This document shows, one piece after another, positions 14,801 to 63,527 of a DNA stretch of 64,000 nt. The DNA comes from Psococerastis gibbosa (Eukaryota > Arthropoda > Insecta > Psocodea > Psocidae). Position numbers and translations under genes: made by a program. Each line of letters begins with the position of its first letter. Within the stretch, counting starts at the first letter, position 1. Location of the stretch: the NCBI GenBank assembly GCA_963971405.1, contig OZ020490.1, positions 22,097,464-22,161,463 on the forward strand. The letters run 5' to 3'. The notes below the pieces were generated by a model. That model was not told where the DNA came from, did no database searches, and worked only from the letters and a program-made list of their open reading frames with translations.

Positions 14801-17800
14801 AGAAAACACCAGCCCCGTACAACCGCAACAATTTGGCCAATAAACTCATGAACTGCAAAACCAAACCAGAAAAGGAAAAAGTCAATGGAGTTTATCGTCG
14901 AAATTGTAACGATTGTAACGCAATTTACATAGGCCAAACAGGCAGAAGCTTTAAAACTAGGGTCAGAGAACATATAACAGGTATAGGAGACACCAACACC
15001 AACTGCACACTCGCGAAACACCTTAACTCGGAAAATCACACATTCGACCCTCACAATTGGACAGCCCTGCACAAAATAAAGAAAAGTTGCACTTTAAATT
15101 TTTTTGAAAATGTTGAAATCATAAGAGCTTTACACAATAGGGAAAAATTAACAAACAACCAACATTCACACAATCATCCCCTCTAATAGATCTAGCTAGT
15201 AGGTTAGGAATAGGTAACCAGCCACGCCCCCTCCCACCCCCGCTCCCAGTCCTATATAAACCATGGTTTCCTCTCCCTAGTCACATTTGCATCTTCTCCT
15301 CGAGTAGAGCAAGTCTCAAATCGCAGATAAGGTGTAACTGTGCTAGTGGGTTTCCCTCGGTAGATGGCAGTTCTTGTCGATAGCGCTCAGGGTTTTATAT
15401 TAACACAAGTGGGTTTCTTAGACAAAGTTAATTTCTTAATGATTATTTGGGTTTTACTAATTCGGGTTGTTATAACATGTTTTTCTAAAACTCTAAGTTT
15501 TTGTTATTTTTTGTTTATTAAAATGAAATACCACGAAGTCACGTGTAATCTAATTATTTATGGTCTGGTATAATCCAACTTCGGTGTTAATTAAGCAACC
15601 CTAGCGTTCTATGTAGGAAAGATCGGACATTCGCTCTCGCCAAGGATATTTTTCTGGTGCCACGTCTTCTTCGACCAATCCAAGCCCAAAATATTGAGTA
15701 AGCGGGCGGTTCTCGCTATATACAGTAAAAACCAAGCTATTAAGATGATCACACGAGACTCAGGGACCCAAAGTCAAGTGCGCAGAACATAGTGCGCCTG
15801 AATTATGTTGTCTACCCTACCTGTTGCATTGGTTTATATATATATATTTTCTTCATGTTTGCAACCCTACTACTTGGACACATTTCCTCTCCATGACGAT
15901 TTGACTAATGCCTTCTACGTTTGCCCGCTATCGACCATATGTATACAAAGCACGTCTAAGGTTATATTTAGACGCAATCTACTCGATTTTAAATAAATAA
16001 ATTTTAAAAAAGGACTTCTTATTGTTTCTATTACTAAGCCAACCTAGCGGAGTTAGGGCTATAAAGCCCTCTCTTACACTCAACTAGGATGACCCGGGAC
16101 CGCCTGCTTTACATGCCCTCCGAAGCATGGCGAGAAAATGTAGCCATTGTGGGACTCAAACCAACAACCTTTCGGGTGAAAGTCAGAGCCCGTACCACTA
16201 CGCTACATGTCCTGACTTTAATTTATTATCGTTATAAGGCGGCTATTCCACCGACGTCGCTTTTCATTGTGCATGTGCATGACGTGGTTAATAAGTCTCT
16301 ACCATATTATAAGTTAATTTATAATAGATAAGTATCTACAAGTCTCCTTAAAATATGGCAGAGACTTATTAATGATGTCTGCTACCACGTCATGCACAAA
16401 AAACGACGTCGGTGGAATAGCCGCCTAATCAGAGCCTGCCAGCCGCAACGGGATTTGTTTTTGTTAAAGTACCCAAGGTGGACTCTGATTGGTCGCATGG
16501 CGCAAGCGAAAGCCCCACTTCTCCTATTTCTAAGTCTCCGCAAGCCTGTCAACGGGCATAGTATCGTGCAAGAAGGCTTACCAATAGATCCGGTGCCATC
16601 AATAATAGCAGTCACAGTTGCCAAGGCTTTAGCGTTTCCATTTAAACTCTCGTGGGTGCCGAGCTCCGCTGATACCGCGGTTGTAATTAGAGAGTATGGG
16701 CCGTTCACAAACGCTCCCCCAATCAACAATAAAACTATGTTCAGTTCCAGTTTAGTAGCTCCATACTCCTGGTAAAGCACCAGCTGTAAACAATGACATA
16801 ACAATAGTTATTTAACCTGAATTATAAAGGAAACAACGGAAATATATACATATTATGAGACCCTCACTAAAACAGGTTGGCCACGGTTATAGAACTTATT
16901 TCACCCGAGGACCTCACCTGTTTTTTATTTATTTATTTAATTTTTTTTTAAAATTTAATTCAAAGTTTTCACGAAACATTGATGGTACTTAGTCTTTAAT
17001 TTATTCTTAAAATTATTTATATTTATAAAAGGTTCACAGCATACAGTCATCAGACCCCCACCCCCCTTTAACTTAACCTTAAATTAATAGGAAAAATAAT
17101 TATTTTCCCGTACTAAATACCTTTTATGGAAAAAAAAATTTAAGGGCTAATAAATCAACGCATTAAAATGGGTTTTTAACAATTGTCAAGTAGCCTATTG
17201 TATTATCGTTCGAAATTTTTCAATTCAGTGAAATTAATTAATTGTAATAACTTTGGCAAAATCATTCTTTGAACAGCTCTTAAACAAGATTTACCTAACT
17301 GAACTATTATAATCTATAAATAAGATAATCTCCACAATAACTGGAAAGACCGAAACAAATCATGGAGTGGGCTTACCGATGGTATGGAAGCAAGCAACAT
17401 GGAAACACACGTGGACGCAGGCATATTGGATGCGTCAGAAATCAGTCCAGCCACAATGGCACCAACAATGCCTCCTACGTCGAATATTGTTGACAAATCG
17501 GCACTCAGCGTCGGCGACAACGAAGTCGAGTCCTTAATGTATCGTGGAAGCCAGAACAGGAATGTGTACGACACTAGTTTCGCAAAGAATAGCGATAACG
17601 AGAATTCCACAACGCCCTAAAATGAAAAGCAGTATTTTTCACTAAAAGAAATTAATTAAAATAGGCTATACTATGACAATATGAGAACAAATAAGTACCT
17701 ATATAATTACAAATAAAATTGCACTTCATTCCACAACATACATTTTTTTAAATAATGACAGCTGTTTCGGTGTGAGGCGCCCATTCCACCGACCGGCTAG

Positions 17801-20800
17801 GGCTATTTACAAAATCAGTGACGTGGTAGCAGACATTCAAGACTTAGGCGGGGTTTCCACCGACCTCGCATTGCAGAATTGACGGAAATGTTTATTTTCC
17901 TCTATGCCATAGTTGAAATTGATCAATGCTAAATCACAAACAAACAAACTAAAATTAAAAAAAGGCTTCATGGGATATGTTAAGTACAAACATTTTAATA
18001 GATTTCTATAAAAAGAAAAATTCAAATTTCCGTCAATGTAATTAGCATTCTGCAATGCGAGGTCGGTGGAAACGCCACCTAAGTCTTGAATGTCTGCTAC
18101 CACGTCACCGTTTTTGTAAATAGCCCTAGCCGGTCGGTGGAATGGGCGCCTGACGCCATCTTCAGAGGCAAAATTTTACGTTGTGGAATTAAGTGCAATT
18201 TTATTTATAATTATATAGGCGGCGTTTCCATTGACCTCGTATTGCAGAATGCACATGACGTTGACGTGGTTGTAGACATCATTAATAAGTCTTTAATGTC
18301 TGCTACCACGTCAACGTCATGTGCATTCTGCAATAAGAGGTCAATGGAAACGCCGCTTTACTTATTTGTCATCTATCACTTCCACGAAGTCACCGAAGAA
18401 ACTCTCACAATATGAGAAAAACAAATGAGGAAAAAACAACAACAAAACGGTGGTAATATAACAAGAATTTTCGGAGTGAATTGTAGGAGGGAAATTGTGA
18501 TGTTACCGTCATTCATCAGTGCAAGTGAATTACAATTCTTAACTTAATTCATAATCTTATGCTCAGTTAAGGTCAGAAAGACCTCGTACAGCCACGTCTT
18601 TTCTCCCAGTGAGAGTAAGGCATCCATTAGGTTGGGCTAGAGCCAACGCCTTTTTCCTTTTACGTCAGATGTCAGATTTCGAACTCAGTTCAGTCCAGGA
18701 TATATGGCAGTTCAATTTAGTGGAAACATTGGCAACGCCTGTTAATATGGTACTTATATGATTTAATAACAAGCCACTGACATTAGTTTCTATTTTCTAC
18801 CCTAAATGAGAAGCCTGTACCACCCATCTAAAATACTCACAGGAATTCTCAATGCTCCAATGAAACCGATCGCTTGGTCAGGTTCGGAATTCAGAATTGG
18901 ACTAGATTCGGTTAAGCCAGGCGATTCCTGAAACACCATCGACAATGAATTAAACCGAAAAAAATACAGTAAACTATAAAAAAAAAGGCACAAAAATCAA
19001 AGCAACAGTGTCAACACAAAAAACGACACATTACAAAAATGAAAAAGCAGCTCAGTTAAGCAAAACAAATGTGCATGCAAAAAACCAAAACGGAATGATG
19101 CTTAATGCAGTGGCGAGTGGTGGATTACCATACAGCTCAAGCTATATTTCTTTTACAAGTCTCTTTTAAAAACCCCGCTTGGTGCTATTACTCTATTGTG
19201 CAACTGAAACATGCATGACATTGGAAAGGTACATCAGAAAAATTATATTTTAGCAGGCTATTTTTTTTAAATGAAAATGGATCCTTTTTTATTTTGAAAA
19301 TGAAATGAAATTAAACACCACTGGGGGACGAGGCCTAATAGGTTGGTTCACACTAACTTACACTAAGGACTACAATATTTGTGAATTTAAAAGAAATCTT
19401 TTTTAAGAAAATATTCTTAATGGTTTTATTGTGGTTGTGGGGGATGAAACCCCCAAAAATGATGTTATCCAAAAAGTAAAAAAAGACACCTCTGCATAAT
19501 AATTTTACATGCAGAATTTCGTCAAATTACAGAAAGCGCGTTTGGAGTGCGGTCCGGGGAATTCACGATGCCTCTTCGTCATACGACGGGTATTGATTGT
19601 CAGCTGCCTTCAATACAATTTTGCAGGTACTGCGACAACTATAACCTCGCAAGTTAAATTGTGTTTTGAAAACTGGAAAGTCGTTCCTTGGTTTATAACA
19701 TGGGCCGCTCACCTATGCTTGACTGCATGCAATCAAGCCTCAGCTTGTCCCTTGCTTGGGTTGACATTGAGGACATGTGCTAGCATGCTAATAGTCGCAA
19801 TTAATGGGTCGTTGTGCTGACAGGTTAGGTTCAAACTAGACCCACATTCATAAAAAGACCTTCAAACACGAATAATTAAACATGGCAATCCTTGAATGTT
19901 CTATTAATTATCCATAAAGCACTCGGAGGCTTCTTCGTCATTAAATAGCATATAAAATTATTAATTTAAACGTACACGGGCATGCCGGGCTGTTAGAGAA
20001 TCGTACACAGACGGTTGGTAACTCACGGCAGCTTCGTCGCCAGATTCAGATGGCGTGGCTTCACACTGTGGAATGGCGGCGTATCCCGCAACACTCATCC
20101 CCTACAACACATAACACGTAAACAAATCCACAGACAAAAATACCCACTACACTTCTACAAAGAGAGAAGAGCGTTAATAGCTGTCGTGTGGAACGGTACA
20201 CACGAATATTCACAACGCGGCAAGCGCTTTGGTAAGTTTGTAATAAAAGCAAATGGGTTGGAGCAAAACCCCAGAGTCTACTTCAGATGATTTCTGTCGC
20301 TGGCTCGCCGCTGATACCTCGCGCCGGTTTTACCCGTGACGCGGCAGCGAACCATAGATTTTCAGAAGTGCCCTCAGAATAAGACTGCGTTTTGCACCAA
20401 CCATTTGCCCCCATGACTAATTTCTCAGCGTTCGAATTGTCCATATGTATCCATGTATCTCAGGGACGCTAAAATGCCTTCACCGTTTTCCAAGTTTTAG
20501 CCACCCTTTGATACTAAAACATAAGATAAACATTCGCAATAAATGGTGTCTCTAACAAGGCGTATCCCTTAGCACCTAATGAGCATCGAGTTTTAGATAT
20601 ATGGTTTTTATCATCAAATAAGTGATCAATTAAGCTATAAAAGACATCTTCACAGAGGTCTGCATGTAGTCAATTTATATTTTTAAGTATTAACTTTTAA
20701 TGTGAGCTCTATGTACTAGGAGCAAAATGGACACCCCACAATCCGTTTTTTGAACAAGAACTTATTTCACAGAAAATATCCACTGTAGGGCCAACAAAGA

Positions 20801-23800
20801 TGTTAGATCCCTTGTAAGAAATATTGATTTTATTACTACGTGATAATATAATATGTGGCCTCTCCTTCCTCCCGTGACTTTCACCAAGTTTAATAATTGT
20901 GGCAGAAAATTATTTTAGGCTTTAGAAAAAGGCACACATCAAATCAATATGCCTAGAGACATTTCTTCTAAGAAACAACAAAACTACGTTCAATTTTTTG
21001 GTTATATTTCGATATTTGATTTTGTTACACCTGAAGGGTTTTTCCCACTCCGAATTTCACTCAAACAACAAATTAACTCCACTCCACTGGTGTGACTATT
21101 GTCTCCTAAGTATTTGTAGCTCCAATTGTAATCTAATCCTAAATTTGCAGCCAGACTTGTCAATATACTATTCATTATTACTAAGTTAGGTTTCTAAATC
21201 TACTGTTAAAACTACGCTAGTCTGTTATTTTGTTCCACCTTTAGACACACCAAACGTAAAACCAGCAACTTACAGACAGTGACAGACATTCACACTTACC
21301 CGTATGGGCGCCTCAATGACTGGGGGACACCCTACATCTTCAGGATGCACCACCAGGAATAGGAACAGAACAATGCCAATGATGACCATAATGACACCAG
21401 GTACAATAAAACTGAGAGACCAATCACCTTCAACGAAAACTCCCGCCAAAAGGGAACCCAGGATGTTTCCGATTGAAGTGTGCGAGTTCCAAACTCCAAA
21501 GATTAAACCTACGAGTACAACAAAATTAATTACATGTTTTGGTACGAATCATTAAGGACATTTTTTTTTAAGAGGAAACCATTAATACCATTAATAACAA
21601 CCTATACGAGTGAATCAGTACATGCTTTCCTATTTTCCTATTAGTATAAGGTGCCGTATTATAGATAGAGATCCACGGACCAAATATAATTGCCCTGGGG
21701 TTAAATTTCGGCTGCGTTTCCTTATTCTACATGTGACTATTACCAAGTCTAGAATTGGCTGAGCTTTTTATGGTCTCAGGAGCGAAGACGCGAAAATCCC
21801 TGATCTCTATCTCCTCGTGGTGAAGATGGAAGCGGGTAATGGCGACTGAACAGATAGGGGACCGAGTTGGAATCGGAATATGCGAAAACACCGTCTTTTC
21901 TGTGCAGGGCACTCTTTTTCCCTGGGGTTGGGAAACTGACCCCGAAGGTGGAGGAACTCAATCAAGAGCCAACGGCATAAGGATGCAGAAATCACTGCAT
22001 TACAATTCCCTAGTTTGATTATCAAAGCGCCCAGTAGCCTTAGCGTAATAATATGGGAAGGGATTTCTTGAGCAATCAAGTATAGTCACGGTTCAAAAGA
22101 AATTGTAGGAAAAATGTGTCGATTCGGTGTTATGTTGTGACAGCCACCGAGATTGTGACGTGTTATCAAAATGCAGATGAAAATGTCTTCTATTACGTGA
22201 GTCTTCAAAAATTTAATTTGGCAAAAATTCAGTTTTGTGGCGGTCTGTTAGTTTCTTGTACCCGTCGTAAAGCTGCGTCCAGACTATGTATTAACGCAAT
22301 GCATTATGGCAATGTCGTAGTGCTTTTTCGTAGTGTGGACTCAACAAAAGCCGAAACACAATGCATTAGAGACAGGGATTACAGGATCCGAAAGTTTGCG
22401 GTCTCTGTCAAAGGAAAGCCGATGGGCATGCTGTAGTCTTGGACGGTGCGCGATCCCTATTCCCGATGCATTCGTCATTGCGCATGCTCTCAGTACCCGT
22501 GTGGTCAGGCTCAGCAGTCATCTGCTGTCGTTTTGAGTCTTGTTTCTATCTGCTTTTGGGAATATATAATATTATTTTGAAAGTTATGGCGGATCAGGAA
22601 GTGGAGTAGTCAGATGACCAATGTTTAATACTCATAGGTAAGTATCGTGAGACCCCCGCTTTGTGGAATCCTTAGTTGAAAGTATATAAAAACCGCAATA
22701 AACGGCGAGACTCGTGGCAAGAACTAGGAGAAATTTTCGGATCTTTCATTAAATCACTGGCGCTGTAGGTAGTCCTGCTTTTTAGACTCGGTCGAACCCA
22801 AAATCTTTTCCTTGCGCATAGGTGCACAAGACAAAATCACGGCAGCAGCGGCGGCCAACACTACATCCTCTTCCTCAAGCATTGCGAGCGAAACTGACCC
22901 TGCTATCACACGTCCACACTGCAACTGTAGTGAGGACGGAGGCCTTAATGCAAAGCACTATGGCTTTTCCGTAATGCATTGCGTTACTGCACCAGTCTGA
23001 ACGCAGCTTAAGAAACACATACAAATAAATTGCCATTAGGTGCCCATTCCATCGACCGGCTAGGGCTATTTACAAAAACGGTGACGTGGTAGCAGACATT
23101 CAAGTCTTAGGTGGCGATTCCACCGACTTCGCATTGCAGAATTGACGTAAATGTTTATTTTTCTCTATGTCATAGTTAAAATTGATCAATGATCATACAG
23201 TAAAATCACAAACAAACAAACTAAAATTAAAAAATGGCGTCATGGGATATGTTAAGTACAAACATTTTAATAGATTTCTATAAAAAGAAAAATTCTAATT
23301 TCCGTCAATGTCATTTGCATTCTGCAATGCGAGGTCGGTGGAAACGCCACCTAAGTCTTGAATGTCTGCTACCACGTCACCGTTTTTGTAAATAGCCCTA
23401 GCCGGTCGATGGAATGGGCGCCTTAATTGTGCCTCCACGCATGCGGCTGCCTCAAAGTGGCGTGTACTTCGCTTTATACTCTCGTCAATAAACAATATAT
23501 ATCTAAGTATCTTTACCTCTTTTGGATTTGCCAAACCAATGGCCACAGACGGCAACTACAGCAGGCCAGCCAGTGGTCTGCGTAATGCCGAACAAAATTT
23601 GAATGATGATGAAATAAGTCAATGAATGAATTTGGAAGGTGTAGGCCAAGCCGAGCAAGCAGCAAAATATTCCAGACGAGATCATGCCGAATGAAAGGAA
23701 GTAGCGAAGGTTCACGCGCTCCGCTACGAACCCACTGCAACCATAGAAATATATTAACTGGAATGGCCGGAGCCATAATATACCTTACGGGGCTCCCGTT

Positions 23801-26712: not shown

Positions 26713-27530
26713 CTGAAAATAAAAATGCCCCGCAATTATTAATTACATTAAAATTAACGTCCGCCATTTGTATAACAGCAGTCACTGGGTGGACATTTAC
26801 TCACACTCAAGGCCATTGGATCGAATTTTTCAGCATGAGGCAAGGATCAATTGCGAACGACAGAGATTGCGATATAAGTGAATTGAGAGTCCCTTGACGC
26901 CCTGACGGAGGCACTAACAAGATAAAGAAGAAGAGGCAAGGCTTGAAAATGGCATAAACAAAAATTAGAGGATATAACGAGGTTCTTTAACCAAAGTTAA
27001 TTTTTTTTATTTAGGCAATGAACTCGTACGGAATGGGCGCGAGAACAATAGGTGCTTCCTTAACTCGAACAAGATGTGCAGGTCGAGGTTGGGCAGGTTG
27101 CCTCTTCAGATTTAATGTCAGTGTTATGTATACCATATAATTCTACAATATATGGCATAAACACTTGAAAATTACATCAAAATACATACATACATACAAT
27201 ACACATACATGAAGGCCATATATTATACATACTATACTTAAGATTTTTCAAAGAAAATACTATTATTTATTAACCAAAATTTTATTCTGCTATCCTTACA
27301 ACCTTCATAACACGACATTTTTGGGTGGTATTTCGATTTGAGAGTAGAATTCTTTCGATCCTTGGCCTGCATTTTTTCTTCTTCACAAAACTTGTAAATC
27401 CGTTGGAAACTCGAAACCGATTATTTCGACCATCCCAAAGCATTCCTTATACTATCTGTACTTAATGAAATCAAAAAGAGTATTGCTTAACAAAGGGTTA
27501 GTTGGCCTCATTTCTTATTTTCTTAATAAA
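26713..27530. other. Upstream of SLC37 start, no gene recognised
   Basis: The SLC37 start codon is preceded at once by TTATTTTCAG, so this is intron of the same gene. It contains a catacatacatacaatacaca microsatellite near 27,185 and AT-rich unique DNA. No exon was seen. Confidence 0.4.
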
Positions 27531-27534
27531 AGGT

Positions 27535-27715
27535 TAAATCGCATACAAACAATTTAATGAATGTATCCGATCAACCTCTTCAATCGCATCACTAAGGTGA
27601 CTTGTGTCGAATTACGACATGTCTCCGACCGCAAGGTGTGTAGATACTCACACAAGTAGGTACAAGCACGTTACCACCTTGCCACCGAAGTCGCAAACCT
27701 ACATTGTCTGTTGTG
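27535..27715 (-). repeat. SINE family 2 copy (reverse)
   Basis: The reverse complement reads ggtggcaaggtggtaacgtg, a gtcggagacatgtcgtaatt arm and a tail with ttgaagaggttgatcggata and cattcattaaattgtttgta. Its unbroken tail is the empty-site counterpart of the copy that F6 interrupts at 31.4 kb. Confidence 0.6.
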
Positions 27716-27794
27716 TTAGTAGCCGTTAGAGGCAGGGAGTCTTACTATCATTATTAAGCAGACAATGCCTAGACTGATCAAATGGGACAGGAAA

Positions 27795-28327: not shown

Positions 28328-28721
28328 GGCGCGGTTTCCACCGACCTGCAAGTGAAAATACAAAGACGGTGACGTGGTAGCAGACATTCAAGACTTAGGC
28401 GGGGTTTCCGACGACCTCTCATTGCAGATTGCAAATGACATTGACGGAAATGTTTGTTTTACTCTATGGCATAGTTAAAATTGATCAATGATCATAGAGT
28501 AAAATCACAAACAAACAAACTAAAATTATAAAATGGCTTCATGGGATATGTTAAGTACAAACATTTTAATAGATATCTATATAAAGAAAAATTCAAATTT
28601 CCGTCAATTTCATTTGCATTCTGTAATGCGAGGTCGGTGGAAACACCGCCCAAGTCTTGAATGTCTGTTACCACGTCACCGTATTTGTATTTTGCACTTG
28701 CTGGTCGGTGGAAACCGCGCC
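28328..28721. mobile_element. Foldback element F5 (394 bp, composite with a different outer end)
   Basis: The outer terminus GGCGCGGTTTCCACCGACCT differs from F2, F4, F7, F9 and F12, but the apex motif gacgtggtagcagacattca, the inner ggcggggtttcc terminus and the central loop are the same. Flanks are TGA and TAA. Confidence 0.75.
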
Positions 28722-28739
28722 TAATGAAATAGCTCACAC

Positions 28740-31257: not shown

Positions 31258-31705
31258 AATAATAGCGACTTCGGTGGCAAGGTGGTAGCGGGCTTGTACT
31301 TGTACGAGTCTCTACACACCTTGCGGTCGGAAACGTGTCGCAACTCGACACAAGTACCTATTAGGTGACTTAGTGAGGCGATTGAAGAGGTTAATCGGAT
31401 ACATTCATTAGGCGGCCATTCCACCGGCGAATTAACTTCAAAAATTGACTTTGTCATTGAAGTTTGTTTTGTTTTAAGGAGACTATTATGTAGATACTTA
31501 ACTTATCTATTATACATTAAGTTATAATATGGTAGAGACTTATTAATGACGTCTGCTACCATATCATAACTTTATTTTTATAGATAAGTTAAGTATCTAA
31601 ATAATAGTCTCCTTAAAACAAAACAAACGTCAATGAAAAAGTCAATTTTTCAAGTTAATTCGCCGGTGGAATGGCCGCCTTAAATTGTTTGTATGCGATT
31701 TAACT
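31258..31705 (+). repeat. SINE family 2 copy, split by foldback F6
   Basis: tRNA-like 5' part ggtggcaaggtggtagcggg (box A region), then ccttgcggtcggaaacgtgt and cgcaactcgacacaagtacc, then a tail gaagaggttaatcggataca and ttca. The tail resumes after F6 at 31,680 as ttaaattgtttgtatgcgat. Other copies: 8.6, 27.6, 32.3 and 51.1 kb. Confidence 0.62.
31411..31679. mobile_element. Foldback element F6 (269 bp) inside a SINE
   Basis: Ends GGCGGCCATTCCACCGGCGA / inverse, arms about 125 bp, tip around gagacttattaatgacgtct. TTA lies at 31408-31410 and again at 31680-31682. The paralogous SINE tail at 27.5 kb has a single TTA at that place, so the boundaries and 3-bp duplication are shown by an empty site. 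Confidence 0.85.
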
Positions 31706-38780: not shown

Positions 38781-39164
38781 GGTGCCCATTCCATTGACCG
38801 GCTAGGGCTATTTCCAACAACGGTGACGTGGTAGCAGACATTCAAGACTTAGGTAGCGTTTCCACCGACCTCGCATTGCAGAATTGACGGAAATGTTTAT
38901 TTTCCTCTATGCCATAGTTAAAATTGATCAATGATCATACAGTAAAATCACAAACAAATAAACTAATATTAAAAAATGGCGTCATGGGATATGTTAAGTA
39001 CAAACATTTTAATAGATTTCTATAAAAAGAAAAATTCTAATTTCCGTCAATGTCATTTGCATTCTGCAATGCGAGGTCGTTGGAAACGCCACCTAAGTCT
39101 TGAATGTCTGCTACCACGTCACCGTTGTTGGAAATAGCCCTAGCCGGTCAATGGAATGGGCGCC
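38781..39164. mobile_element. Foldback element F7 (384 bp, composite type)
   Basis: Ends GGTGCCCATTCCATTGACCG / inverse, TTA at 38778-38780 and 39165-39167, and the same nested interior as F2 and F4. The two arms share private variants (for example ttggaaatagccc opposite gggctatttccaa). Confidence 0.8.
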
Positions 39165-39645: not shown

Positions 39646-39657
39646 TTATGACTTATG

Positions 39658-40047
39658 AGGATATGCTACGTAGAAAATTGGCGCCCCAAAATGTAATCTT
39701 TTTTTTCCATTAACTCAGCAAATTATTAAAAATTTGACTCATTAAAGTTGTTGAAGACTACTTCGTATAGCCTATCATGTAATTGGGTATTTTTACTTTT
39801 CGGGGTTTTAGTTTTTCCAAAAATTCAAGTTACGCGAAATTTTAGTAACCACTGGTTTTTATGAGCTAGAGAACTAAAGGTACCAAAAATGTAATATTCC
39901 TATTATATTATGATGCATGAAGTAGTCTTATACATCTTACATGAGCCAAATCTTTAATAACATGCTTTACTAATAGATCAAAAAACAAAAAGTCAATAAA
40001 AACAACAAATGTTGGGGTGCTAATTTTCTACGTAGCATATCCTCTTA
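39658..40047. mobile_element. TIR element, ends GAGGATATGCTACGTAGAAA
   Basis: gaggatatgctacgtagaaa with attggcgccccaa at the left is mirrored by ttggggtgctaattttctac and gtagcatatcctc at the right, about 390 bp. The interior is AT-rich and non-coding. The superfamily is not clear: both flanks have TTA near the ends. Confidence 0.62.
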
Positions 40048-40059
40048 AAGTATTCATAT

Positions 40060-47537: not shown

Positions 47538-47611
47538 GGCGCTTATTCCACCTACGTCAATAGTCAATACCACATTTACTATTTACTATTGACGTAGATG
47601 GAATAAGCGCC
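47538..47611. mobile_element. Foldback element F8 (74 bp, minimal form)
   Basis: 27-bp arms with one mismatch (GGCGCTTATTCCACCTACGT start) around a 20-nt loop containing accacatttact. TTT lies on both sides. It looks like an internally deleted relative of F11, whose arms contain the same loop string. Confidence 0.72.
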
Positions 47612-49530: not shown

Positions 49531-49915
49531 GGCGCCCATTCCACCGACCGGCTAGGGCTATTTACAAAAACGGTGACGTGGAAGGAGACATTCAAGACTT
49601 AGGTGGCGTTTCCACCGACCTCGCATTGCAGAATGCAAATGACATTGACGGAAATTAGAATTTTTCTTTTTATAGAAATCTATTAAAATGTTTGTACTTA
49701 ACATATCCCATGACGCCATTTTTTAATTTTAGTTTGTTTGTTTGTGATTTTACTGTATGATCCATTGATCAATTTTAACTATGGCATAGAGGAAAATAAA
49801 CATTTCCGTCAATTCTGCAATGCGAGGTCGGAGGAAACCCCGCCTAAGTCTTGAATGTCTGCTACCATGTCACTGTTTTTGTAAATAGACCTAGCCGGTC
49901 GGTGGAATGGGCGCC
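49531..49915. mobile_element. Foldback element F9 (385 bp, composite type, inverted interior)
   Basis: Ends GGCGCCCATTCCACCGACCG / inverse, TTA at 49528-49530 and 49916-49918. The asymmetric central loop lies in the opposite orientation to F2, F4, F7 and F12, as expected for insertion in either direction. Confidence 0.82.
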
Positions 49916-53100: not shown

Positions 53101-56100
53101 GATTTAAATTAGTAACAGCATTCGGATTGTAAGAAACAACACAATAGCAACGGCAACGTGTGAAGCCAATCCATAAGTGTATGTAGCATTTATAAGCTAC
53201 CAATTTTATTTCACTTTTGTACTCGTTAAAAAAAAATTAATATTGCCAAGAAGCATAAAAGTACTAAACGAAGGATATAGTGAAAATGAGGTGTAAGTGT
53301 GAATTAACCAAGTCGGAAGCGATTCCCAGAGGATGTGTAACAATAGAAACTGAGTAACAAACCTAGAGTTAGGGTGAGCCGCAGGTTCCTTGCAATTCTG
53401 GTTCCACGGCCGGCCTTTCCAATCGACGATATGTGACGTGGGAGCAGGCAGTCCATCCCAGTACACGCCACCATCCCCAGTGGTGGCAACATTCGTAAAT
53501 AACGTATTCTTTTGGATAGTATGCATTGCGTTCGGGTTCGTGGCATTAGACGTCCCTGAAAATATTTTATTGCCAATTATTAATTTAAAAAAAATAAAGA
53601 TAAAGATCTAACAAAAAGGGTCTAGGCCTGAGCACAGGTAGAGGATACTATCTCATGACCACAATTATTCATAAAGTATTGTCAAATTTTTAATAGCGCT
53701 GAATACAAAATTATCTTAGAAGACGAGAAATCTAGCCCATAGATTATAGGGAGCATCCATAAATTACGCAACGCTTTTGGGGGAGAGGGGGGGGGGGGGG
53801 GTTTCCATCAGCGTTGCGCTTCGTTACGATAGGGGAAGGGTATAGACCGGCGTTACGTAACGTAAAGATTCAATTTTAATTTCATAAAGTTAACAATAGA
53901 TAAAATTATTTTTTCAAAGTAAAGATAAAACCGAACAAATATTGCAATATTCATCACTTCGTAGAACAAAACGTTGATGCCTTATTTATAGCTATACCAA
54001 TGCCCCTGGTAGGAGTGGATTTAATCGCGTAGAAGGGAGGATGGCCCCTCTGAGCAAAGAATTGGCAGGAGAATGATGAAAGGGGGGGGGGGGGTGAGGT
54101 AGCGTTACGTAATTATTGGGGGGTGGCTACTATCGTTACGGTCCCGTTACAAGGGTTGAGGGAGGGGTTTAAAATCCCCAATTTTTGCGTTACGTAATTT
54201 ATGGATGGCCCCATAGTATTCTGTGATCTAGCCTTGCCAAATTCACGCAGCTATGTTTGATAATAAAACTAGATCTTGCCATAAATATATTCAGCAATAT
54301 ATAGTAGGTACCGGCAATAAAAAAATTAGCCAATAATAATTATTAATCTAATACAGAACGATTTCCTTAGGTACCAACCATATGTCAACAGAAAATATTT
54401 AATTATTATCTGAATTGGCAACGGCGTTAATATTACTCAACTTTTTTCTACACAGCCCATCCTATAGCTTATCTTTAAGAACAAAAAAGTAATTTATCAC
54501 TACCTCGCCCTGCCAAACACCCCATCGGTTTGGGACATTATTATTGGTATTGTTTCCGAATGAATTTCTATTCATTGGCAAACTGGTTCACTCCGTTATG
54601 TCAACCCACACCGACTATAAAGTGTCAATAACAAACATGTCAAACAAGATGAGGGCATTGACATTGCAACAGGTATTAATTAGCTCTACTTAGCCTAGTA
54701 TGGAAATGAGTCCAGGCCTACCCGCCCTAAGAAACTACGGTACCTGGGGCAACTCCAAAGAAGCCATTCTCGGGGTTAATGGCTCTGAGCACGCCGTTGG
54801 AGTCGAAGCGCATCCAGGCAATGTCATCACCGACACACTCGACCTTGTAGCCCACCAGGCTGGACTTCAACATGGCCAAATTGGTCTTGCCGCAGGCACT
54901 GGGGAACGCGGCAGCTATGTACTTCTTCTCTCCTGCGGGATTCGTCACACCAAGAATCTGTGTACAACATATACAATATTTGTGTAATGATAAAATAAAT
55001 GAAAATACAACTTTCTATCTCACGCCCAATATACTGCAGACCAATGAACAGGGTCAACATCTATATTTGACAAGTACAATACAACTTTTTGCACGACGTA
55101 GGATTGTTAGGAACTGCCTGTTTTTACACGAAATGTTTTGATTAGAAGGTAGCCATTGTTGAGGCGATTAACCGTTCTCTGTAGGTCGAATCTCAATATA
55201 TTATTGAGCTGCCAGTCTTCAGTAAATATAAGTTTTCTTTCCTGTCGCGTGACGGATCCGGGCCCGGGTCCTCCTTTTCCACGGTGAATGCCTCTCAAAT
55301 ATAGTTCAGTTGATTTTTCGCACCAAGGTTTTCACTCTTGCACTTTATGTATTACTAGAAAATTCTACAGAATATGCTGTGGGTGACAATGGAGTTAAGA
55401 CTATCTAAACAGTTTACTATGTAAGGCGCTTATTCCACCTACGTCAATAGTGATAATAAATATAGTATTGACGGAAATTTGAATTTTACTCTATGCCATA
55501 GTTAAAATTGATCAATGATCATAGAGTAAAATCACGCGCTGCAAACAATAACATACTAAAATGGCGTCATGGAATATGTGTATGTACAAACATTTTAATA
55601 GATTGTTTATAAAACAGTTTTTATGCATTAAACAGGTCGGTGAAGGTCGATCTTACTTCGATCTTATTAAAAATAATAAGTGTACGAAGAAAACAAATAC
55701 AAACAAAATTAAAAAAAACAAATGCAAACAAATTTCAAAAATTTGGCGCATACGTGTCATTAGAAGAAAAGTGATCCATAGTTGAAAAAACCAGTGGAAT
55801 GGCATGTATCAATGAAAAATTCAAATTCCCGTCAATAGTACATTTACTATCACTATTGACGTAGGTGGAATAAGCGCCTTATCGTGATCAGCATACTGAC
55901 CAGCATATGTTCAGCAAGCCAGCCTTCTTTACGAGCAAGCGTGCTGCCAATCCTAAGAGCGAACCCTTTTTTCCCCAGTAACGAATTACCACCATAGCCG
56001 CTGCCATATGATATGATTTCATTGTGGTCCGGCCTGTAACAAAACAAATAAAGTAAGATAACCACCTACTCACTCTTATGAAATGAAATAAAATGAAATT

Positions 56101-59100
56101 AAAAACGACTTTATTGCAAATAAAACAAAAGGCGAACAACAAGACTTGTATATAGTCTTGTTTTCAGGCTAAGCTTAAAAACCAAAACATTGCGTAATAG
56201 ATGAATTAAAATTAAGTGGAGAAGAAAAAAAAGTAGAAGAGAGGAATAGTGAAAAAAAGAAAAATGTATAGGGGGGGGGGGGTGATCCATTGTCATCACC
56301 ATTACAGGACCGGAGACTGGAGAGTCTCAAGCTTTATCAAAGAAATAGGCTAGTGTTTAATTATTTTCTTAAAGCTACTATTGACTATATTGACATATTT
56401 TTTTTCGTCGTGGCAAAATATATTTTGCGAAATACATTGCTTTGAAAATAAGTTAGGTAATTCCTGTTACGCTGTTTTATGTAGTGCTTTTGAGGAAGGG
56501 TTTCTTTTCTGCCTTACTTGGTATATTTGGACATTTTCAATAAATTGATAAAACACCAAAAAATTATAAGTGACCATTATTAAAATAAAAGTAGGCCTAC
56601 TGTGATTTATTAATTAATTTATTAAAAATATAATTTATAATGTTTTTACATCACCGCGCAGGCAAAGGTAACTATAGAAATGTAGTAAATGGAGCAGCCT
56701 TCAATCTTTCAAACTTCGATCAATACACTCAGGAAGAACAACCCACAACTTTCACCGAGTAAATAAATAAATAAGGACTTTTTGTTCTATTACTAAGCCA
56801 ACCTAGCGCAGTTAGGGCTATAAAGCCCACTCTAACACTCAACTAGGAAGGCCCGGGACCGCCTGCTTTATATGCCCTCCGAAGCATGGCCAGAAAATGT
56901 AGCAAGTGTAGGACTCGAACCAACAACCTTTCGGGTGAAAGTCAGAGTCCGTACCACTACTCTGCATCTCTTGACGAGTATCAATCAAAGCGAAATAAAA
57001 AATCCCTTTCGGCTCTGGCCGATCAGGTGTAGGGAGATTCCGCAGACCCAGCTTTTCCTCTACGCCTCCTACGCTATGTAATATAAAAAAAAAAATACTT
57101 CATTATTTTCCCAACCACAACATCAACTCACAAATCACTCTTGTGTTCCAAATTTCGAACCACAATGACGACTATGAACTTTTACTTATAAAATTATTTT
57201 CACATTGACTGGACGCCGTCTTAAAATGGTTGATTTGTTCTAAAAAGTGTCGATAACCATTATCGTAGAAAATAATACGGGTTTTCAGTCAAATTTTATT
57301 TCATTCCTCTGCGACCAATATTAACTGAGATATGAATTATATGAAATTTCAATCGGCCGCCATCTTGTAACTAAATAGTGGATCTAGCTGGTTAACGAAC
57401 TTGATCAAGACATTTGTATGATCAATGTTTGTGGCAAGTTTCAACAAAATCAGATAATATTTAGGGAAGTTAGGGTGTTTCCTAAAATCGATATATATAT
57501 ACATATATATATATAAGTAATTATAAAGGTACATACATGTATATAGTATGTACTGTATATATAACATTTTGAACGGAGGTTGGTTTTAGACTCAGGGGGT
57601 CATGAAATGAAAAGTTGTGAAGCAATTTTCCGGAAGTCGAACATTGGTCGCCATCTCAATAGGTAGATAGGTAGGGTACAAGAAAGGAGCCACCTCGAAG
57701 ATTGGTTTTATGCTCGCGGGCGTAAAACCGATCGGGCGTACCCCGGGCAACGCTAAGAGGAATCATCTAGCGGCTAATCCTTTCACCACCGAGAAGAGGC
57801 CATAAGCTTCCACTACTTTCGTGCATAAACTATGGCGTCAGGATAGTTGGCTGAGCACAGAAACAAGGAGTCTCTACCTCAGACACGAAAAAGTAAAGTA
57901 AGTAATAGGTAGATGAATCTCCATAAAAATAAAATACGACTTACCTATGCATAATAACAGTTCTCTCTGGGTCACAGGGCCAGGAAGGAACATCATGGCG
58001 GCCGCAGGCAGGGGTGCCAACAGAATGAAGGCACTTGACCACACCCTCAGCATTTGGTAACACGTCGAGCACCGAGTTGCCCATCCTGGTCATTATCCTC
58101 ATGGAGGCGACAACATACGGCGAGTCAGTGATTTCGACCCCAATCTTTGAGAGGGGACTTCCCACAGGTCCCATTGAGAATGGAATAATATACATGGTCC
58201 GTCCTAGCACAGGAAAAATTATATCAATTAGATAAAATTTAGTTGCGTCCAACCGGGGTGAGTTTAGGAAATGGGTTCGGGGCGACTCCCTCACGCTGCG
58301 CACGCGGCACTAAGAGGAATGAAGAAGAAAAAATTTGGTTCAACAGAGTTCATGCAACACATTCTCCTAGATTACGAACGAAAAGTAGGAAGAGGGGAAC
58401 CATCCTAATGAAATCGAAAAACCGGATGAGTTTAGGGTATTGAACGAAACTACACCGGGGTCACTGGAGACGTTTGCTCCATGAAGTGAGTGCAAAAGCA
58501 ATATAGCGACTTGAGCTCTCTTAATAAACCATTAAAATATTTATATTATTCAAATCAAATCAAATGTATTTAATTCCATCTCAAGAGTACAAGAAACAAA
58601 TGAACAATTCCCAACCCGAAATGGTCCTATGAATGTGCTTGGGGAGGGAACATACCATACTAGACTAAATTATAACAATGACATGTGTGCCTCAAATGGA
58701 TAGCTATGCTATTGAAAAAGGAGAAGATATATTAATACAAATGGATAAATAGTTAATAAAAAGATTACATTATATATATTTTCTGATATTTGGATTTGAG
58801 TGAATTAATTAGCATCGGAAAAGGAATATTGCTGGTTTGTATTGGGGTGAGTGGGAGGTGAGAGCTTTAGTAATAAATGGAAGTCTGATCTGAGGATTTC
58901 CTGTGGGGTAGTTAGGTAACGACTGATGTTGGTCAACTCTTATTTTAAGATCATATACGGCTTTGAGTATACTTGCTTTATATATATCGAAAGGAACATT
59001 GAGAAGTTTGTACAGTGAGACTGCCGAGAAGTAGTAAGGTTTATTGAAGGACACTCTGAGGATATTATTTAGCGCTACATTAATTCTATTATATTATTAT

Positions 59101-61320
59101 ACTATCGATTGTATATGCATAGTACTAGATATTTACACTTATAAGACTTTTCCCTTTCCGATTGCCTCTGAATGAGAATCATGGATGGTACCTTTCATAC
59201 AGCCAGGAAATCTTTCTTGGGTAGCTTTGACGTAATCTTGTGGAGATATCCAATTGCCCAATGTGCTCTTCCCTGACCCACGGGGCACGGTATCATGCTT
59301 GTTTTCTGAACACATAAACGTTTTGCTTTCGACCCGAGCGACATCTTTGGGATTAGTTCTAGCAATCCAACTGAAAACGAAAAAAATAGAGTTGTACAAT
59401 AAATGCCATTTATACCCCAATCATTTGGTAGGGAAAAGGGGGGGGGGGGTAGCTGGATCATGTTCCGGAACTTTGAAAATATGTGATGCTATATTGTACT
59501 AGTAGTTTTCGGGGTGCTCTTTCTGTCTTTCTGAATTTCAACTTTGCCACTTCGTATCTTTGCCGCTAGCACCGCCATCTTGGAAAAAACATTTTTTGTT
59601 TTCCCAGACACTATTGATCTGACGGAAAGAAGTGTGAAAAAGGCATATTTTTATCTTCAATAAAATACCTAAATAAGGCTACTTGAAATATACATAAAAA
59701 TGAAATATACATGGGTAACATGAAAATGACGTCACATTCCGGCTTCTCCTGAGGATAATACTACTGGCGGCTACTCTGAGGCCATCGTAGATGACGTCGC
59801 ATTCCACAGTCCATCAAAATTAAATTGAAAAATATTTTTTCCCTACGAAATAGGCCTAACGTATTTTATGAAGAAAAAAATCTACTAATGCATTAAAATA
59901 GATTTTCAAAAATTGTCAAGTACTGGTAGTGGCTTTTAATAGAAGTAGACATAGGCCTAATAAAGTATTAAACTGCGGATATTTTTGTTGCGACCAATTT
60001 GTTGAATTTTTTCTTAACAAGCTTTATAGGCCTACAGCCTATAGGAATAGTAATAAAGACATCCTTCGGTATACATTTTCCACGGCATTGCCAACCATGT
60101 TATTGGCGGCCAACCTATCTGAGCACTTTAACCAAGGTTTTATAAATTGCAATATTATTCAACTGAAGGGCGTGGGGTCCTCAGGTCTATTTCTTATCCT
60201 CCACTTAAGACTTGGGCCTTGAGCTCGGCCATAGTTTTCCCCCTTTTCTCGGCCAGGCTTTTATGGAGTAGAGTCCTCAGTCTCTGAATTCTTGTGGCCT
60301 CGGCCAGACTCTATTTTCCGTGGCCTGGGACTGTGACCAACCATACTACTAGGTAAACTCACCAGTTGTCATATTTTCGCAAATTTCTGATGGCTCCCTG
60401 CGACGCCATAAGATGGAGCAACTGCTCATTTTCGAATTGAGAGCCAGAGCATACATGTACTTCTTTCGGCTTGCACAGGGCGATTTTGTCTTCAACATAC
60501 TCCCGGATTTCCTTACCAAGGCGGCTCAATGGGAAGGAAGAACCTCGTTTCAGCTGAACTGGGGGAATTTTGACAGATTGCACCACGGATACGGCCGCGT
60601 TGTACCTGAAATTAGGCGAATCGTATAATTATATCAAGCCCTGAGTTTCTATCATACGGTTGGTGGGATGACCAAGTGCGGACTTTAGGGGGGGGGCGTA
60701 GGGTCCGGACCCCCCCCCCCCCAAATATATTAACTTACACTAGATAACAATAGGTTTACAGTGGGAATTAAAAATTATTATGTTTTTTAAAGTTATAATG
60801 CACTGAACCTGCTCGCTGACCCCCCCCCCCCTAAATTGGAGGCTAAAATCCGCCCTTGTAGACTGCCTTACTGCAGGCTATATTTTATGATAAAGCGTGA
60901 CGAGAAGTCTTATAAAGTAAACTAAAAATTTGCGATGAGCTTTAACGATCGAGGTCAAGAAATAGGTTCAGAAGTATTTTTAAACGTTTGTAGGAAATCA
61001 AGAAAAAAATATACAGCCCCAATTGTATCAAATAGCAGTTTGAAATCTACATAATAATAAAAAATGCAAAATACAAAAAATATATTAGGTCAGGATATTC
61101 TTCTGCCAAGAGCCCCCTGTCCTTCTATCTTCCCTATGATTATTACATGCAGAAGGAGATATACTTTTCGTTCCTAATCACATTGCCGAAGAATATCAGT
61201 TTTCGTTTCTTAACCATATATCCTCATATAGGAGTAAAAATCCCAGAGCTAATTAAAATAGGACTGCATGAAAATTTAATAAAATACTTACAATTTGACA
61301 TCATTGACGAGTCCGGGCAT
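50171..61320 (-). CDS. PEPCK: Phosphoenolpyruvate carboxykinase (GTP), complete, 11 coding exons
   Basis: Converts oxaloacetate and GTP to phosphoenolpyruvate, CO2 and GDP, the committed step of gluconeogenesis. Exons on -: 61320-61292, 60605-60363, 59370-59192, 58203-57945, 56033-55901, 54957-54744, 53555-53363, 53086-52888, 52045-51899, 51478-51278, 50305-50171 (TGA). The sum is 1932 nt, 643 aa, with no frame break (family about 620-650). Motifs: substrate region [20 protein letters not shown] (about residues 158-177), ACGKTN P-loop with the reactive Cys at about 302-307, CVGDDIAW metal-binding motif at about 322-329, [12 protein letters not shown] at about 342-353, FGGRRPEG at about 445-452. 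The N-terminus [10 protein letters not shown] is short and lacks an obvious mitochondrial presequence, suggesting a cytosolic enzyme. The start was chosen because ATG at 61320 gives nine codons plus two bases that match the next exon's phase. Confidence 0.95.
50714..50845 (+). repeat. LINE 3'-end fragment, same family as 25.2-26.1 kb
   Basis: The frame reads [20 protein letters not shown] then [12 protein letters not shown], with a gaagaagaag tail. It matches the C-terminus of the internally deleted LINE. It lies in the PEPCK last intron, antisense. Confidence 0.7.
51075..51215 (+). repeat. SINE family 2 copy
   Basis: atggccaggtggtagcgtgc, then gcgatcggagacgtgtcgta and actcaacacgggtact, then gaggtcaatcggatacatcc. 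It lies in the PEPCK last intron, sense to + strand. Confidence 0.6.
53749..54212. mobile_element. TIR element with CATCCATAAATTACG ends
   Basis: gggagcatccataaattacg at the left and cgtaatttatggatggcccc at the right, about 464 bp, with poly-G tracts inside and cgttacgtaa strings near both ends. It resembles a common insect MITE type; the superfamily is not certain. It lies in a PEPCK intron. Confidence 0.65.
55435..55878. mobile_element. Foldback element F10 (444 bp)
   Basis: Terminus GGCGCTTATTCCACCTACGT (as in F8), but the interior carries the aattgatcaatgatcat loop of the composite elements, followed by a unique AT-rich insert. Flanks TAA / TTA. It ends 22 bp from the PEPCK exon at 55901. 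Confidence 0.75.
56765..56985 (-). repeat. tRNA-derived SINE family 1, copy 3
   Basis: On -, box A within agagtagtggtacggactct and box B GGTTCGAGTCCTACACTT, with the family body to ttggcttagtaatagaacaa. It lies in a PEPCK intron. Confidence 0.7.
57485..57560. repeat. TA-rich microsatellite
   Basis: atatatatatacatatatat followed by tgtatatagtatgtactgta, simple-sequence DNA in a PEPCK intron. Confidence 0.6.
58560..59100 (-). mobile_element. LINE remnant (C-terminal RT-like frame)
   Basis: The - strand frame 59054-58809, open further upstream, reads [40 protein letters not shown] and a tail with [13 protein letters not shown]. The pattern resembles the post-catalytic region of arthropod LINEs. 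It is short, with no catalytic motif, and lies in a PEPCK intron in the same orientation. Confidence 0.42.
60672..60858. mobile_element. Short G/C-tract inverted-repeat element
   Basis: caagtgcggactttaggggg at the left and taaaatccgcccttg at the right, with G and C tracts inside. It resembles the 8-bp-TSD elements at 1.0, 39.4, 41.5 and 42.4 kb, but no target duplication could be found. It lies just upstream of PEPCK exon 2 in the intron. Confidence 0.5.
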
Positions 61321-61509
61321 TTCGAAAAGTGCACTACTACAGACTTAAGTGACATGAGAGGAGGTTGTAGTTTTAATGCCCACAACTCCGCGTGGACATT
61401 GTTTTATATGAAAGTCCTTCAAGCTCTCCATGTCAACAACAGTCAGCAAATACGTCATTGTTCAAAGGTTCACAGCAACAGCCGGCGAGCCTTTCCTAAT
61501 GCGTTTCCA
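61292..61509 (-). other. PEPCK: PEPCK exon with 5' UTR and start codon
   Basis: Acceptor tttactttcag|tgg at 61509 and donor aaatt|gtaagt at 61292. The first 189 nt are untranslated leader, then ATG at 61320. An upstream untranslated exon and the promoter lie at higher coordinates and were not identified. Confidence 0.75.
61345..61458 (-). promoter_or_regulatory. 37-codon upstream ORF in the PEPCK leader
   Basis: ATG at 61458 opens MTYLLTVVDMESLKDFHIKQ and ends at TAA 61347-61345, 24 bases before the PEPCK ATG at 61320. Upstream ORFs of this kind can lower or condition translation of the main frame. That this one is translated is inference. Confidence 0.5.
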
Positions 61510-61821
61510 CTGAAAGTAAATACCGATTTAGACATATTTATCATGGTCAATTAAATGCTTGATTACAAAATAGGTACCTATTGCTCTGTCTGTAATTTTT
61601 ATGTCCAAAACTTAGAAAGCTGTGTTTTCCAATTTTCCGTGGCTTGTGTCTATCACATTATTTTTCGCCACATATCCAGATCTTTCTCTATCTCTGCCAT
61701 GCCGCCGAAGCCATCACCAACCTTACAGTCGTTTCCGTGTGAATTTCGGCCGCGCGCACAGCAAGAAAAAAAATTGGTTTACAGTATGAGAGGCTATTCT
61801 GCAAAATATAAGGACTTCAAA

Positions 61822-61868
61822 GAACAGTTTCGTCATATTACAGACTCTGTAATATGACGAAACTGTTC
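61822..61868. repeat. Perfect 22-bp inverted repeat, 3-nt loop
   Basis: gaacagtttcgtcatattac+ag pairs exactly with ctgtaatatgacgaaactgt+tc around act. No terminal signature of the foldback families is present. Confidence 0.8.
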
Positions 61869-61954
61869 AGTAATACAGAGGACGGCTACATCATGTGATT
61901 CATGTGTCAAAAATTTTACTGACATCATCTTCAATGGATCGCCTTTGGCCTTTA

Positions 61955-62099
61955 GGCGCATATTATTCCACCTACGTTAATAGCCAATAGTAAATGTGGT
62001 ATTGACGTGGTAGCAGACATTTTTAGACTGTCTTTAATGTCTGCTAAAACGTCAATACCACATTTACTATTGACTATTGACGTAGGTGGAGAAAGCGCC
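61955..62099. mobile_element. Foldback element F11 (145 bp)
   Basis: Ends GGCGCATATTATTCCACCTA / GGCGCTTTCTCCACCTACGT (inverted), TTA at 61952-61954 and 62100-62102. The arms contain accacatttactatt and the gtggtagcagacatt apex. This joins the F8/F10 terminus to the apex found in the F2-type elements. Confidence 0.8.
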
Positions 62100-62109
62100 T
62101 TAGGATTAG

Positions 62110-63140
62110 ATAACATTTGATAGCAGGCGAATTGCCAGGCAACATTTTCTAAATACTCGTAAGCCCTCATTTGGACAACTTGCACATAGCCATGATTGGG
62201 TTGTGATCTTGCAATTATTGTGCCATTATTTACTTCGGGATACTCCTCGCTCAGATTATTGATTTGTTGCCTTGGGCGGAGATTCTTTCGGCCATAAATA
62301 ATTTTTGAATTTACAGCAACTTAATTGTTAATCTACAACCAAATTATAGACTAATATAGTCCAATAACAGTTAGTTAATTTTAAATATTGCTTTTTTACA
62401 ATTCAAATAATAAACAGATCCAACTGCTTTGTATATCGACGTAAATGAATGAAATAAAATAAAAAGTGATACGGTACGATATGCCTATGGAGGTAATTTT
62501 TAGGAATTGACCACTCAATCAGAGGAGGGCATTTTGTCACATTGTTTTTATTTTATTTCTATATGCAAGTTGTCAATTAATTATAATAACAGTCATATAA
62601 CACTAACCACAAGTCGTCCGCACTAATCCAGATTAAGAATTGGTGGAGCGCAGTTTATAAATTTTCCTAGTGAAAGACCTCGGCATTTTATCTGACGTAA
62701 TAAATCCGTGTACGACAATACAGCCCAACAAAAACAAATTATTTGCAGGGGGCCTTTCCGGGGGAGCCATTAGAGCGAAAGGTTAGTAAAATTACAGTTC
62801 GATGCATGGGGTAACAGCGGGACAGCCTTTAAGGCAATGCACTCCATGTGTAAACTCACAGGTCAATGCACACAAGATATGTTATAGTAGAATTCTGTGA
62901 TGAAAACTATCAGGTAAACTTTCTGGGCGCCCGGATCATCATTACAATTAGGCGCCAACTGCAATTTAATTGATTGATTGATTCCGGTAAATCATTCCAT
63001 TAGCCTATCTTTCTTACCCTTTCTTAAGCTTAGCTAAAGAGACCCCCATAGAGCCATCAAAGTGATGACACACAGCAGAAGAAATGTTTCTCCACAATTT
63101 GGTTGACTGGACAGTATACAGCATACATATATTACAGTAT
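62110..63140. other. Stretch without recognised features
   Basis: Upstream of PEPCK. No first exon or promoter of that gene could be assigned. AT-rich, unique. Confidence 0.35.
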
Positions 63141-63151
63141 TCTGTGGTTTA

Positions 63152-63527
63152 GGTGCCCATTCCACCGACCGGCTAGGGCTATTTACAAAAACGGTGACGT
63201 GGTAGCAGACATTCAAGACTTAGGCGGGGTTTCCACCGACCTCGCATTGCAAAATTGACGGAAATGTTTATTTTCCTCTATGCCATAGTTAAAATTGATC
63301 AATGATCATACAGTAAAATCACAAACTAAAATTAAAAAATGGCGTCATGGGATATGTTAAGTACAAACATTTAAATAGATTTCTATAAAAAGAAAAATTC
63401 TAATTTCCGTCAATGTCATTTGCATTCTGCAATGCGAGGTCGGTGGAAACCCCGCCTAAGTCTTGAATGTCTGCTACCACGTCACCGTTTTTGTAAATAG
63501 CCCTAGCCGGTCGGTGGAATGGGCGCC
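63152..63527. mobile_element. Foldback element F12 (376 bp, composite type)
   Basis: Ends GGTGCCCATTCCACCGACCG / inverse, TTA before and ATA after. The interior is nearly identical to F2 and F4, with the ggcggggtttccaccgacct inner terminus. Confidence 0.8.

Follow-up and report, generated by a model that had tools for sequence, protein, structure and literature searches.

Probable nested insertion and matched arms in a large Tourist-like family of foldback elements from Psococerastis gibbosa

How do short foldback elements of a single genome come to carry different arms while the two arms of each copy stay matched? The question is raised by a stretch of 64,000 nucleotides from the psocid Psococerastis gibbosa (contig OZ020490.1, positions 22,097,464 to 22,161,463; hereafter the window), in which a first-pass annotation had listed twelve foldback elements with at least six terminal arm types and two apex modules, A and B, and had proposed that arms and apices recombine while palindromy is kept. 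All twelve elements (F1–F12) are real and were mapped exactly, one-to-one with that list, and all six arm types were found among them. We name the arms alpha (GGCGCCCATT), beta (GGCGCGGTTT), zeta (GGCGGNGTTT), gamma (GGCGCTTATT), and delta (the arm of F1), and genome-wide counts refer to the host genome (409 Mb, 68 contigs), from which further loci (L numbers) were read. Taken as a whole, the elements are probably best read as one family of Tourist-like miniature inverted-repeat transposable elements (MITEs), in which a zeta-B element became nested in a zeta-A element, the two arms of a copy were homogenized, and parts were exchanged to a limited extent.

The elements are united by their ends and target duplications. 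All twelve carry an inverted end of 15 bp, GGCG-N3-W-TTCCACC or a slight variant of it (GGTG is frequent), and beyond these 15 bp nothing is shared by every arm. TTCCACC starts four bases after GGCG, not six to nine as initially described; the left end of F11 has three extra bases at this place, and a pattern with 9-base spacing gave one match against 1.14 expected. PIF/Harbinger elements follow a GG terminal rule, and the left ends begin with GG in 12 of 12 elements (GGCG in nine, GGTG in three). Perfect 3-bp target duplications, expected by chance at 1.9% per pair, flank eight of the twelve, with TTA five times and TAA, TGA, and TTT once each (six are thus TWA), while the flanks of the remaining four agree at two of three bases. 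As a correction to the earlier description of the flanks as mostly TTA, TAA, or TGA, F8 lies between two TTT triplets. Element length ranges from 74 to 454 bp in the window, and a 19-mer of A occurs exactly 23,616 times genome-wide (11,763 + 11,853; 0 for the backwards-read control). Tourist-like MITEs, as described in the parts of the literature consulted (PMC4482050, PMC2997013), agree with these elements in their ends, target duplication, size, and copy number, and we assign the elements, on the basis of structure, to one very large family of non-autonomous Tourist-like (PIF/Harbinger-type) MITEs. The GG terminal rule has been published for ISL2EU, which belongs to the same superfamily (PMC4482050, consulted in part).

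The genome contains at least 150 scored matches to DDE_Tnp_4, many with open frames of 300–390 codons. Some DDE_Tnp_4 families have many equal-scoring open frames (384, 382, and 375 aa; e.g., C1:11899884-11900378) and were perhaps recently active, although the ends of these families were not found in the loci read, and a short related MITE adjoins one of the DDE_Tnp_4 loci read (L015, 2635-2798). Other affiliations were also considered. Elements of the piggyBac type duplicate TTAA. A piggyBac-type MITE resembling the coral CMITEs does not fit, given the 3-bp duplications and ends that read GGCG or GGTG and not CC[C/T]T (PMC2872659, consulted in part). ISL2EU, with its 2-bp AT duplication, was set aside on the 3-bp identity in 8 of 12 elements and on a comparison with uninterrupted copies (TAA, L027). 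As for the target of NuwaII, TNA between C and G, TGA occurs once, and the window flanks of these twelve elements show no constant C or G. A 27-base word containing A had no match in viral contigs, nor did the 19-base A motif in bacterial and archaeal genome contigs; phage relatives were dismissed, their only matches, at E 0.4, being taken as chance.

Half of the elements (F2, F4, F5, F7, F9, and F12) are concentric two-layer elements. From the outside in, they consist of a 15-bp end, an arm of ~27 bp, the hinge GTGACG, the A half-site TGGTAGCAGACATTCAAGAC, and TTA, followed by a second 15-bp end, a zeta arm, the hinge TTGACG, and then B. A, initially taken for an apex module, therefore sits in the arm of these six long elements, ~42 bp inside each end. 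The outer hinge GTGACG reads TTGACG in related copies, F5 once has TTG instead of TTA before the second terminal signature, and F9 is the same long element in reverse orientation. In an all-against-all comparison (listed to E 1e-4), the long elements share segments with E values down to <1e-100. Among the single-layer elements, F8 aligns with F11 (92% over 49 bp) and looks like an internally deleted gamma-A copy.

The origin of the long form by insertion of a zeta-B element at a TAA in the center of a zeta-A element is well supported. Whole solo zeta-A elements were read in F3 and L034–L037, and in F3, L034, L035, and L036 the apex is uninterrupted and asymmetric (GACATCATTAATAAGTCTTTAATGTC or close, including the stretch ATTAATAAGTCTTTAATG). 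In two-layer copies L010 and L054 (second element), by comparison, ATTATTAATAAA or ATCATTCATAAA, i.e., a ATTAATAA-like half, precedes one inner end, and a GACTTA half precedes the other. But for a surplus A on one side and a single changed base on the other, such mixed flanks are what insertion of the inner element at the TAA of the solo apex would leave, and since the intact apex holds both halves, layering must have begun with a mixed copy. Insertion at TAA is also seen in L027, where an alpha element lies inside a gamma-B copy with TAA on both sides and other B copies have a single TAA. Zeta ends outside a layered context number 60 + 51 genome-wide, by a pattern excluding the layered flank at three positions, although those listed with AGATTA could instead be layered copies that have lost one base. 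A very unlikely alternative is that the layers stem from tandem duplication of a 71-bp half unit: L052 and L060 do repeat the same zeta-A unit at 71-bp spacing, but in the mixed copies the inner element is bordered on its two sides by the halves of what is a single uninterrupted apex elsewhere, and this speaks against duplication as the origin of the first nesting. Duplication may nonetheless add further layers later. L052 (80-240) and L060 (82-300) are three-layer copies in which the same 71-bp half unit is repeated, which suggests that layers can also multiply.

The flanks left by this insertion must have differed at the start. Some copies still have two unlike flanks, while in others the flanks have become alike, in one direction or the other. 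Genome-wide, a GACTTA-type flank precedes an inner end with the TTGACG hinge 592 times (294 + 298), and a ATTAATAA-type flank precedes an inner end 864 times (437 + 427), with 0 matches for both controls. On contig C1 below ~42 Mb, the range in which both flank lists are complete, pairing by exact patterns gave 12 copies with ATTAATAA on both sides, 6 with GACTTA on both sides, and 5 mixed copies; 125 of 171 places remained unpaired because exact patterns miss diverged partners. Eight of the paired loci were read (L063–L070), and the five both-ATTAATAA and three mixed copies among them were as classed, with the inner arm disrupted on one side in two of the mixed loci (L068 and L069). Between A and the inner layer, every one of the 28 alpha arms that were read has the GACTTA type. 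Beta-like arms occur with mixed flanks (L010), with ATTAATAA on both sides (L063–L067), and with GACTTA on both sides (F5 and the first element of L054), and zeta arms with mixed flanks (L068–L070) and also with GACTTA on both sides. The presence of several flank classes with beta and zeta arms implies either that conversion happened more than once or that arms passed from one class to another.

Within a copy, the two arms are much more similar to each other than to arms of other copies. In a hand-chosen set of 21 outer A layers, each with both arms parsed (gamma-B copies, inner B layers, and copies in which a single arm was parsed being left out), the left–right edit distance averaged 2.48 within and 9.58 between copies, and no permutation out of 20,000 gave a sum as low as that observed. 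The own arm was nearest or tied in 14 of the 21 layers (2.2 expected) and not in the other 7. An uncleaned set of 44 automatically paired arms pointed in the same direction; three of its pairs were mispaired (L027 146/605, L058 84/580, and L060 153/547) and were excluded from the 21-layer set. Individual changes are shared between arms as well: ten alpha copies show 14 departures from the common form in both arms, A34C is present in both arms of F7 and of one L009 copy, and F7 has another matched change at position 38, neither being at CpG.

These patterns probably arose by copying of one arm onto the other, through template switching in a hairpin or a similar conversion between inverted repeats. 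Such conversion would proceed by short tracts and recur through many generations of the element, and copies would be filtered by the need for both ends to be recognized by one transposase. A hairpin-based amplification model for elements of this kind was reportedly put forward by Izsvak and colleagues in 1999. Selection for matching ends could in principle do without copying, by fixing separate changes in the second arm. Both transposon ends must serve one transposase, and the restriction of common sequence to the terminal 15 bp is in line with such selection; however, segments of about ten bases in the flanks (ATCATTAATAAA or ATTCAAGACTTA) are identical on both arms, which would be hard to achieve by separate point changes, so that we find selection alone hardly credible. 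A double change restoring a palindrome is mentioned for mariner-like elements (PMC2955051, consulted in part).

We compared 84 distinct arms from the loci and the window plus 39 strings hand-copied from pattern lists (118 distinct in total), 27 of the hand-picked strings coming from 100 listed places in which a zeta-type arm joins A. Alpha is connected to zeta by a path of 8 steps through loci and window arms only, the largest of 5 edits, across a direct distance of 13; beta is connected to zeta in 5 steps (largest 4) and zeta to kappa, a further arm form, in 7 (largest 5). The spanning tree of the loci and window arms has a median edge of 2, compared to 12 after shuffling. Given intermediates separated by steps of at most 5 edits, alpha, beta, and zeta look like diverged forms of one arm and, judged from sequence, of one lineage. 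Gamma and delta are only loosely linked to this series and the F6 arm lies outside the arm set, so that for the gamma, F1, and F6 arms a swap is possible. Some of the listed arms of the zeta-type-to-A class consist of a short tandem repeat (ATAGTG units) whose number differs between arms (e.g., C12:21159867 and C12:21159938).

Several observations weigh against an account based on nesting and arm-to-arm copying. At the insertion site, the ATTAATAA flank is mostly one A longer than a clean TAA duplication predicts, the right half of the solo apex reads ATTAAAGACTTA where layered copies have ATTCAAGACTTA (a one-base difference), and some of the mixed copies may have come from recombination between the two homogenized classes. 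In the arm series, a step of 8 is required for each of the kappa–gamma and zeta–delta links, and the spanning tree has edges as long as 9–14 (14–15 after shuffling). An autonomous Harbinger with these ends, which the first-pass annotation had suggested looking for, was not found around the transposase in a small sample of six DDE_Tnp_4 loci, for each of which 3.6 kb was read, with ~7.6 kb for one. Homogenization is also incomplete: the ten alpha copies carry 25 variants in one arm only, five of the ten have the terminal GGTG at just one of their ends, and in all 14 short inner arms, which carry an 11-bp deletion, the deletion lies on the same side of B. Some of the matched changes are CpG changes, which may occur repeatedly. 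Inversion of the spacer, a sign of template switching, was looked for in these 14 short arms and not seen. From the one-sided GGTG and the one-sided deletion it follows that conversion tracts must be short. Finally, L053 (83-480) has two outer arms of different subtypes, as exchange between copies would give, and such exchange could also produce the both-alike forms.

This last point belongs to a rival in which arms are made alike by exchange between different copies aligned in opposite orientation rather than within one hairpin. We regard it as a real but lesser possibility. The mixed flanks of L053 and the occurrence of beta arms with all three flank combinations are in its favor, while the closeness of the own right arm in two-thirds of the layers, the non-CpG change A34C shared by both arms of F7 and L009, and the constant side of the 11-bp deletion argue against it.

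At least one exchange has taken place between arms and interiors, and the sequences switch abruptly at TTGACG. As first described, the gamma arm is combined with A in F11 and with B in F10 and has neither in F8, which was borne out by element comparison (best matches of E 4e-11 to 2e-15 for the gamma arms, 1e-11 for the A part of F11 against F3, and 3e-38 for the B part of F10 against F7), and the zeta arm occurs with A in F3 and as the inner arm with B in the two-layer elements. Genome-wide, using one-arm exact patterns that miss diverged copies (controls 0), gamma is joined to A 457 times and to B 47 times, and zeta-type arms to A 133 times (GCAGAATGC in 7 among 100 matches listed) and to B 10,296 times (5,120 + 5,176). 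Ten of the 47 gamma-B arms have the GTGGTA-like end that is usual among the listed gamma-A arms; all ten loci were read, and seven are whole elements with this arm type on both sides (point differences allowed) and B inside. Across the TTGACG hinge, identity between gamma-A and gamma-B is 36/40 outside and 9/34 inside, and between zeta-A and zeta-B 37/40 outside and 8/34 inside, in comparisons resting on 1, 4, 5, and 28 sequences. All four combinations of gamma or zeta with A or B are not easily given by descent with internal deletion alone.

Free exchange, with arms and apices as independent modules, is nevertheless unlikely as a general explanation. Besides these combinations and the sharp hinge, it can draw on F1 and F6, which share A and a third segment, C, in opposite order, A lying outside C in F1 and C outside A in F6. 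Against it, exact-pattern scans of the genome, which miss diverged copies, found no alpha arm joined directly to B, 2 cases of alpha on a solo A hairpin (apparently derived by deletion in both), and 2 arms ending in GTGATA joined to B, and the alpha, beta, and zeta arms as well as zeta and kappa are linked by the intermediates described above. The tying of each arm type to one interior, named beforehand as evidence against modular recombination, is thus found for alpha, the commonest arm in the window, but not for gamma and zeta: limited exchange is real, but it is not the main process, and true swapping of parts looks occasional. The TTGACG hinge may be where recombination, or deletion between layers, happens, and layering could itself open a route to exchange if, in a layered copy, the stretch separating the two TTGACG hinges of an arm were deleted. 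Side by side, F1 (16238-16425) and F6 (31411-31679) look as if one palindrome had been turned inside out.

The elements can be compared with known systems on the basis of parts of the cited papers. Tourist-like MITEs are likewise short and non-coding with TWA duplications (PMC2997013, PMC4482050); they include BmMITE-4 and -6 of the silkworm, described as Tourist-like PIF/Harbinger MITEs, and the BmMITE-4 end GGGTCAATTCCCAC resembles the ends of the present elements (PMC2997013). Layered palindromes, stepwise matched arms, and flanks homogenized in two directions are seen here and do not appear in the portions of these two descriptions consulted. Coral CMITEs share an interior that varies less from family to family than the ends do, the retention of a short motif at the termini, and the making of a new element by MITE insertion; they differ in being piggyBac-like with CC[C/T]T ends, in forming tandem rather than concentric arrays, and in that arm homogenization is not described in the abstract or Discussion (PMC2872659). 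Drosophila Foldback4 elements are also palindromic and described as module combinations, but are 627–2266 bp long with termini mostly >400 bp and number ten copies (PMC2955051). In yeast, template switching makes one inverted-repeat arm a copy of the other, in genes and not in transposons, and also inverts the spacer, of which there is no sign in the 14 short arms here, all on the same side of B (PMC8604942, consulted in part). For two-way arm homogenization in MITEs or concentric MITE layers, no account was found in the open-licence literature at the level of titles and abstract openings. Foldback4 is a transposon of another type.

Table 1 Foldback elements of the window and related whole elements read in the genome
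Feature	Position	Strand	Structure	Flanks
F1	16238-16425	.	arm GGCGGCTATT; A outside, segment C inside	TAA/TAA (duplication)
F2	17776-18150	+	two-layer: outer alpha arm with A, inner zeta arm with B	TGA/TGA (duplication)
F2 inner layer	17847-18079	+	second terminal signature	TTA/TAA on + strand
F3	18218-18357	+	solo zeta arm with A apex, uninterrupted	ATA/TTA
F4	23039-23422	+	two-layer alpha-A / zeta-B	TTA/TTA (duplication)
F5	28328-28721	+	two-layer beta-A / zeta-B	TGA/TAA
F6	31411-31679	.	arm GGCGGCCATT; C outside, A central (F1 order reversed)	TTA/TTA (duplication)
F7	38781-39164	+	two-layer alpha-A / zeta-B; both outer arms share four variants	TTA/TTA (duplication)
F8	47538-47611	.	gamma arm only	TTT/TTT (duplication)
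F9	49531-49915	-	two-layer alpha-A / zeta-B, reverse orientation	TTA/TTA (duplication)
F10	55425-55878	+	gamma arm, long B interior	TAA/TTA
F11	61955-62099	.	gamma arm with A apex	TTA/TTA (duplication)
F12	63152-63527	+	two-layer alpha-A / zeta-B	TTA/ATA
F12 inner layer	63223-63456	+	zeta arm with B	TTA/TAA on + strand
Whole gamma-B elements with GTGGTA-like arms	L022-L026, L028, L029			

The window contains other palindromes. A cluster of very long ones at 9376-14761, with arms up to 353 nt that are 95–99% complementary, overlaps GIY-YIG and near-identical frames on both strands; the GIY-YIG frame is of the kind found in Penelope elements, and the cluster is probably Penelope-like. Another palindrome (17698-18219, arms CCTATATAATTACAAATAAAATTGC...) encloses F2, with F3 starting at its right edge, and an imperfect one (39653-40048, ends TTATGAGGATATGCTACGTAG) is apparently outside the F1–F12 family.

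The kind of element found here is ordinary; the record of arm evolution that it preserves is unusual and well preserved. An intact apex, a nested insertion with unlike flanks, and two opposite homogenized outcomes are found together in one family and one genome, and this series of states makes arm-to-arm conversion in transposons measurable. As a tentative answer to how MITEs acquire and keep long, near-perfect inverted arms, to which we would give somewhat less than even chances, the palindromes of MITEs may be both kept and remodeled by recurrent short-tract conversion from arm to arm, so that any asymmetry, even a nested insertion, would be made symmetric in one direction or the other, new matched-arm "families" would appear within one lineage without a new transposon, and a nested copy could become the core of a larger mobile palindrome. 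For the classification of MITEs, the present family is a warning that reliance on arms can split one lineage into many families.

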